Positions 39,347 through 39,440 of a stretch of 42,005 nucleotides of DNA are shown in pieces. Positions within the stretch are counted from its first letter, which is position 1. Each line of letters starts with the position of its first letter. The notes under the pieces were generated by a model. The model made no database searches and was not told the origin of the DNA. It saw only the letters and a program-made list of their open reading frames with translations. Origin of the DNA: a candidate division FCPU426 bacterium (GTDB taxonomy: Bacteria > Oederibacteriota > Muellerivitia > Muellerivitales > Muellerivitaceae); NCBI GenBank assembly GCA_027452205.1, contig DAIDGV010000009.1, positions 1 through 42,005 of the forward strand, written 5' to 3'. The position numbers and the translations under genes are program-made.

Positions 39347-39380
39347 TAAAATAAAAAACCAATTTGCCGAGGCAAATTGG
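39347..39380 (-). terminator. Terminator of the (now truncated) tRNA-Phe gene
   Basis: CCAATTTGCC and GGCAAATTGG form a 10-bp perfect stem with a GA loop; read on the minus strand it is followed by TTTTTTATTTTAGG. It lies 15 bp beyond the CCA end of the tRNA fragment. Confidence 0.85.
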
Positions 39381-39395
39381 CGGGATGAACAAAAA

Positions 39396-39440
39396 TGGTG
39401 CCGAGGGGCAGAATCGAACTGCCGACACGCGGATTTTCAG
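39396..39440 (-). pseudogene. 3' half of tRNA-Phe(GAA): attachment-site copy
   Basis: Read on the minus strand this is CTGAAAA (complete anticodon loop, anticodon GAA), TCCGC (3' anticodon stem), GTGTC (variable loop), GGCAG-TTCGATT-CTGCC (T arm), CCTCGGC, A, CCA: a perfect tRNA-Phe second half. The 5' half is missing: next to the loop lies CTGAT instead of the GCGGA needed. No matching 5' half was found rightward to the window end. Such exact halves are left where a tyrosine-recombinase element inserts in a tRNA gene; the intact gene would then lie at the far end of the element, off the right edge. Confidence 0.85.

Follow-up and report, generated by a model that had tools for sequence, protein, structure and literature searches.

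How did a short prokaryotic Argonaute (pAgo) operon come to lie next to one half of a tRNA gene? The DNA analysed here (the window, 42,005 nucleotides) is the whole of contig C9 in the draft assembly G000 of a candidate division FCPU426 bacterium. Near its right end, a partial tRNA-Phe gene is adjacent to a pAgo gene and the truncated gene of its partner. An original prediction, made from the letters of the window, took this tRNA half to be the left boundary of an integrated element. Here we examine the locus in the window, in the remainder of the assembly, and in related genomes. The features that the argument uses are as follows.

32558-39230, minus strand: chromosomal flank downstream of tRNA-Phe, with GT-like, PMM, RlmH, FecR-like, DinG, and RuvB genes (gene order in relatives, GT-like gene excepted)
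39347-39383, minus strand: rho-independent-like terminator of the tRNA gene (10-bp hairpin, T-run)
39396-39440, minus strand: tRNA-Phe 3' half, a putative displaced attB half and attR-type scar (45/45 identity, uniqueness, start at C32)
39441-39636, no strand: element-side spacer from the tRNA half to the pAgo stop codon (196 bp, no integrase similarity)
39637-41163, minus strand: short pAgo, 508 amino acids from its ATG, putative element cargo (PADLOC pAgo_I, solved short-pAgo chains)
41135-41866, minus strand: APAZ portion of the gene for the pAgo partner, which lacks its N-terminal effector region (PADLOC, weak 8qlo_A match, junction at 41867)
41867-42005, no strand: end of a multi-copy IS-like element, and contig end (identical tail in C20, C26, and C27; related opposite terminus in C13, C21, C24, and C25)

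Results

A tRNA-Phe 3' half that begins in the anticodon loop

Positions 39396-39440, read on the minus strand, are the 3' half of a tRNA-Phe from nt 32 of the anticodon loop through CCA. This 45-nt half (CTGAAAATCCGCGTGTCGGCAGTTCGATTCTGCCCCTCGGCACCA, with the ends CTGAAAATCC...CTCGGCACCA) had been described as perfect, and it is indeed identical at 45/45 positions to the 3' halves of the intact tRNA-Phe(GAA) genes of G003, G004, G006, and G007, four genomes of the same bacterial family as G000. When the half is aligned with the G004 gene, the two agree from C32, the opening base of the anticodon loop, and diverge directly 5' of that base, which places the break exactly at the anticodon loop, as proposed. 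The half is single-copy in the 2.89-Mb draft assembly even when up to 3 mismatches are allowed, and it is therefore not a chance resemblance. ARAGORN identified no complete tRNA in the window. A terminator had been predicted shortly after the half; about 15 bases past it we observed a hairpin and a T-run, and the 94-nt stretch that includes them folds as a terminator with z = -3.96. Because the tRNA gene is on the minus strand, an element integrated here would lie on its 5' side, that is, to the right in window coordinates.

Group I introns occur in the anticodon loop of some bacterial tRNAs. A break in this loop, in an assembly without an intact tRNA-Phe, could thus also mean that the half is functional, either as part of a tRNA-Phe with an anticodon-loop intron or as one of the two halves of a split tRNA. 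However, the 5' half is absent from both window and genome, Rfam group I intron models gave no match at E up to 10 in 38000-42005, the half is followed by a 1.5-kb pAgo gene, and the tRNA-Phe genes of relatives are intron-free. The missing 5' half and the negative Rfam search led us to reject this explanation, which we consider scarcely credible.

tRNA-Phe in the draft assembly

A covariance search of the G000 assembly yielded 43 tRNA genes, which by ARAGORN assignment cover every amino acid but phenylalanine, and no intact tRNA-Phe was found anywhere in the 28 contigs. A tRNA-Phe 5' half was likewise absent from the window and the genome, save for the similar starts of tRNA-Thr genes. tRNA-Phe is a requirement of the cell, and an intact gene should therefore reside in DNA that was not assembled or not binned. 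The element's far end and its integrase are thus probably located in an assembly gap. No second att site for a tRNA-Phe element was found in the G000 assembly. A search of G000 for the orthologue of the PorV-like gene, expected as the other flank, recovered only paralogues of about 34% identity, and contig C14 carries related genes without tRNA-Phe.

The lack of tRNA-Phe from a 28-contig draft and the 141-bp overlaps between contig ends, of the type left by k-mer graphs, would fit an assembly chimera of the tRNA-Phe locus with unrelated DNA. Yet the half is present only once in the assembly, contig ends carry shared repeats and 39440 does not, and the breakpoint agrees with independent integrase scars (see below). 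We judge a chimeric junction to be very improbable.

The uninterrupted site in relatives

In G004, the gene order is PorV-like gene, tRNA-Phe, RlmH, DinG, RuvB; in G006 and G007, it is PorV-like gene, tRNA-Phe, PMM, RlmH, FecR-like, DinG; and in G003, the locus stops after PorV-like gene, tRNA-Phe, and PMM. To the left of the half, the window contains PMM, RlmH, FecR-like, DinG, and RuvB in the order seen in relatives. Gene order thus upholds the proposal that the left side is original chromosome, with the exception of a GT-like gene (38457-39230) that is extra by comparison to the relatives. This GT-like gene separates the tRNA half from PMM in the window and is placed elsewhere in all relatives. 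It has several paralogues per genome and no Pfam match. The G+C content is 40.7% to the right of the scar and 52.7% on the chromosomal side to the left.

All four relatives with the uninterrupted site (G003, G004, G006, and G007) are without pAgo. Comparison with element-free relatives had been suggested as a check on the prediction, and it gave an intact tRNA-Phe and an unbroken gene order in four genomes. A half tRNA shared with pAgo-less relatives would have pointed away from an insertion; these relatives have the whole tRNA-Phe.

A tyrosine-integrase clade at other tRNA genes

The tRNA-Phe locus of G001 is spread over two contigs, one with the PorV-like gene, tRNA-Phe, and a conjugation coupling protein, and the other with a tyrosine integrase, tRNA-Phe, PMM, and RlmH. 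A complete tRNA-Phe is present at both ends of the G001 element (L084 on C41, L095 on C97), in a 77-bp direct repeat; the element appears to carry the whole tRNA-Phe, not just the 3' half.

Contig C23 of G000 encodes an integrase that shares 52% identity with the G001 integrase. Beside it lies a tRNA-Leu(CAA) 3' half that starts with CTCAAAA, and thus at nt 32, and that is identical at 60/61 positions to the intact tRNA-Leu on C19. C19 and C23 overlap end to end by 141 bases. Joined at this overlap, the two contigs would enclose about 65 kb, bounded by the intact tRNA-Leu(CAA) on one side and the 3' half on the other. This stretch would contain the integrase, genes for SspABCD phosphorothioation and metal efflux, a TraG-type ATPase, and a coupling protein that shares 68% identity with its G001 counterpart over 568 amino acids. 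The segment from C19:53367 to C23:26906 (L039, L202, L146, L136, L200, and L178) is a probable conjugative island.

A search of relatives for this integrase returned 19 good loci, partial copies counted (L212-L219 and L224-L234), 16 of which end beside a tRNA or a tRNA 3' half by our reading. The seven alignable halves (Leu, Met twice, Asp twice, Arg-ACG, and Arg-TCT) begin at nt 32 or no more than a few bases from it, and in these seven scars the integrase is right beside the half. At three further loci (Val, Asp, and Asp), the integrase instead adjoins a complete tRNA on its 3' side, a layout that would leave an integrase-free 3' half at the other end, as in the window. The anticodon loop had been called a normal crossover point for tyrosine recombinases, and an integrase clade of the same family leaves just such a breakpoint, including at tRNA-Leu of G000 itself.

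Reading rightwards for an integrase and a complete tRNA-Phe, as had been suggested, leads to the contig end at 42005; in the 2.6 kb visible to the right of the half, we found no integrase similarity and no conjugation gene, and eight integrase-domain matches elsewhere in G000 are not linked to the tRNA-Phe site. Against integration, the integrase adjoins the half in the seven related scars and none is seen in the window's visible 2.6 kb; the three loci with the integrase next to a complete tRNA keep this from being decisive. The missing second att site and PorV-like flank also count against integration. The lack of a visible integrase would equally suit a tRNA-Phe cut by a chance deletion or an IS-driven rearrangement, with the pAgo DNA arriving at the same time or later, as would the many IS-like repeats of G000, one just 2.4 kb away, and the missing upstream PorV-like gene. 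Such an accident is nevertheless improbable in our estimation: the break falls at nt 32, the position at or near which the seven integrase-adjacent scars of the family start; 39440 is without the repeat common to other contig ends; and a deletion would leave the cell with zero tRNA-Phe unless a second gene existed.

Within the spacer, positions 39467-39479 read TTGTACTGTAACG, one mismatch from TTGTNCTGTAATG and inverted relative to the tRNA half. TTGTNCTGTAATG is a motif located just past a few integrases of the clade, and the copy at 39467 may be an integrase arm site or may be due to chance. As an element-end motif, TTGTNCTGTAATG proved too weak, with copies within one mismatch at 3/18 integrase loci and a single copy in the window.

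The Argonaute genes and the contig end

The pAgo ORF can start as far out as 41196. PADLOC assigns the protein to pAgo_I (3e-168), and it matches solved short-pAgo chains at up to 1.8e-107 (8j8h, 8ifk, and 8fex, which we take to be SPARTA structures). No pAgo homologue was found in the 58 other genomes searched and no relative among viral contigs; the nearest relative in a wider collection is 46% identical and comes from a planctomycete assembly. Beside the pAgo homologues of other bacteria, we found one tmRNA and no tRNA genes.

The partner gene matches the PADLOC profile Aga_TIR-PNTD at 3.5e-18 over profile positions 255-422 of 430, and its APAZ part matches 8qlo_A weakly. A TIR domain fused to APAZ is absent, the partner gene being cut at 41867, and no TIR match was found in the outer stretches of other G000 contigs, to which this search was confined. 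The cut is the work of an IS-like repeat, inside which the contig stops at 42005: its junction at 41867 interrupts the partner gene, and IS sequence makes up codons 1-46 of the partner ORF as listed. With its APAZ partner gene cut by this element, this copy of the pAgo defence system has probably lost its activity.

The repeat opens with TGACCTGCCCCC, and C20, C26, and C27 end in exactly the sequence that makes up the last 139-141 bases of C9. The ends of C13, C21, C24, and C25 have a similar terminus followed by an apparent transposase gene start, and from these ends we infer a multi-copy element of the IS3 type. As continuations past the repeat, C13, C21, C24, and C25 were rejected by eye for want of a 4-bp target duplication matching C9; only C27 and C25 share one, also by eye. 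No TIR or APAZ gene was detected in these four candidate far ends.

Two further observations concern mobile DNA in this genome. The first 2000 bases of the window are low in G+C (0.389), carry a terminal repeat common to C10, C11, C12, C15, and C16 that is IS200/IS605-like by eye, and form a second foreign junction. On C13, a serine recombinase gene (locus L126, 2021-3572) runs tail to tail into tRNA-Glu(CTC) of the opposite strand, the 3' ends of the two genes overlapping; it lies in low-G+C DNA and adjoins the IS-like repeat. Since it is normally tyrosine integrases that create islands in tRNA genes, a serine recombinase at tRNA-Glu is unusual.

Discussion

We consider site-specific integration at tRNA-Phe very likely. 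Nearly as firm is the fuller reading of scar and pAgo together as a tRNA-Phe island produced by a tyrosine-recombinase crossover in the anticodon loop. That the pAgo genes lie in an element inserted here, as originally proposed, agrees with the unbroken site in relatives, the AT-rich foreign DNA, and the like scars at other tRNA genes. We are somewhat less certain that this same element carried pAgo because 196 bp separate the end of pAgo from the junction and the far boundary is out of view; pAgo may have come in on its own.

In the proposed history, a mobile element would have entered tRNA-Phe when a tyrosine recombinase made its crossover in the anticodon loop. The tRNA 3' segment brought by the element would have completed the chromosomal 5' half, so that a working tRNA-Phe would again be present, now at the far end, and the original 3' half with its terminator would remain as the displaced attB half. 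The genes of pAgo and its APAZ partner would be cargo, beginning 196 bp inside the end of the element. A later insertion of the IS-like element into the partner gene would also have broken the assembly. The far end, the regenerated tRNA-Phe, and the integrase responsible are inferred parts of this history.

Islander relies on a signature of three parts: a regenerated tRNA gene, an island, and a displaced fragment. It holds 3760 islands with a 3' fragment and 2083 with an anticodon-centred site (PMC4383910). The window shares the displaced 3' tRNA fragment at one end and the uninterrupted site in relatives (G003, G004, G006, and G007), and its crossover at nt 32 in the anticodon loop is likewise that of the anticodon-centred subsite A (PMC4383910). 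Islander islands have a regenerated tRNA and an integrase, whereas the island in the window is seen from one end only. It is probably a tRNA-Phe genomic island of a known kind.

Closer to hand are the conjugative (T4SS-type) islands of the family that use the C23/G001 integrase clade. They break at or near nt 32, as in the window, and one of them occupies the same tRNA-Phe locus in G001. By contrast, the visible 2.6 kb of the window have neither integrase nor conjugation gene, and the cargo is a short pAgo. With respect to SPARTA, in which a short pAgo accompanies a TIR-APAZ protein, the window pAgo is close to the solved short-pAgo chains and likewise has an APAZ partner gene directly upstream; the SPARTA partner has a TIR domain, while the partner in the window is missing its N-terminal effector part.

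A half-tRNA insertion scar is an ordinary, textbook kind of event. Here it indicates that the pAgo operon was brought in by an integrating element instead of being inherited by descent, and it gives one exact boundary of that element. The integrases of the clade sit at different tRNA genes and cut the same loop position, which makes them useful for studies of target change. Tentatively, the pAgo element may belong to, or have been moved by, a family of conjugative islands in which one integrase clade shifts among tRNA genes, keeps the same anticodon-loop crossover, and carries differing defence cargo; we put this forward as a possibility that we would not yet favour. If true, the tRNA genes of the clade would be Phe, Leu, Met, Asp, two Arg, Ser, and Val, and islands differing in their defence cargo, with pAgo here and Ssp phosphorothioation at tRNA-Leu, would fill different tRNA genes of a single genome.
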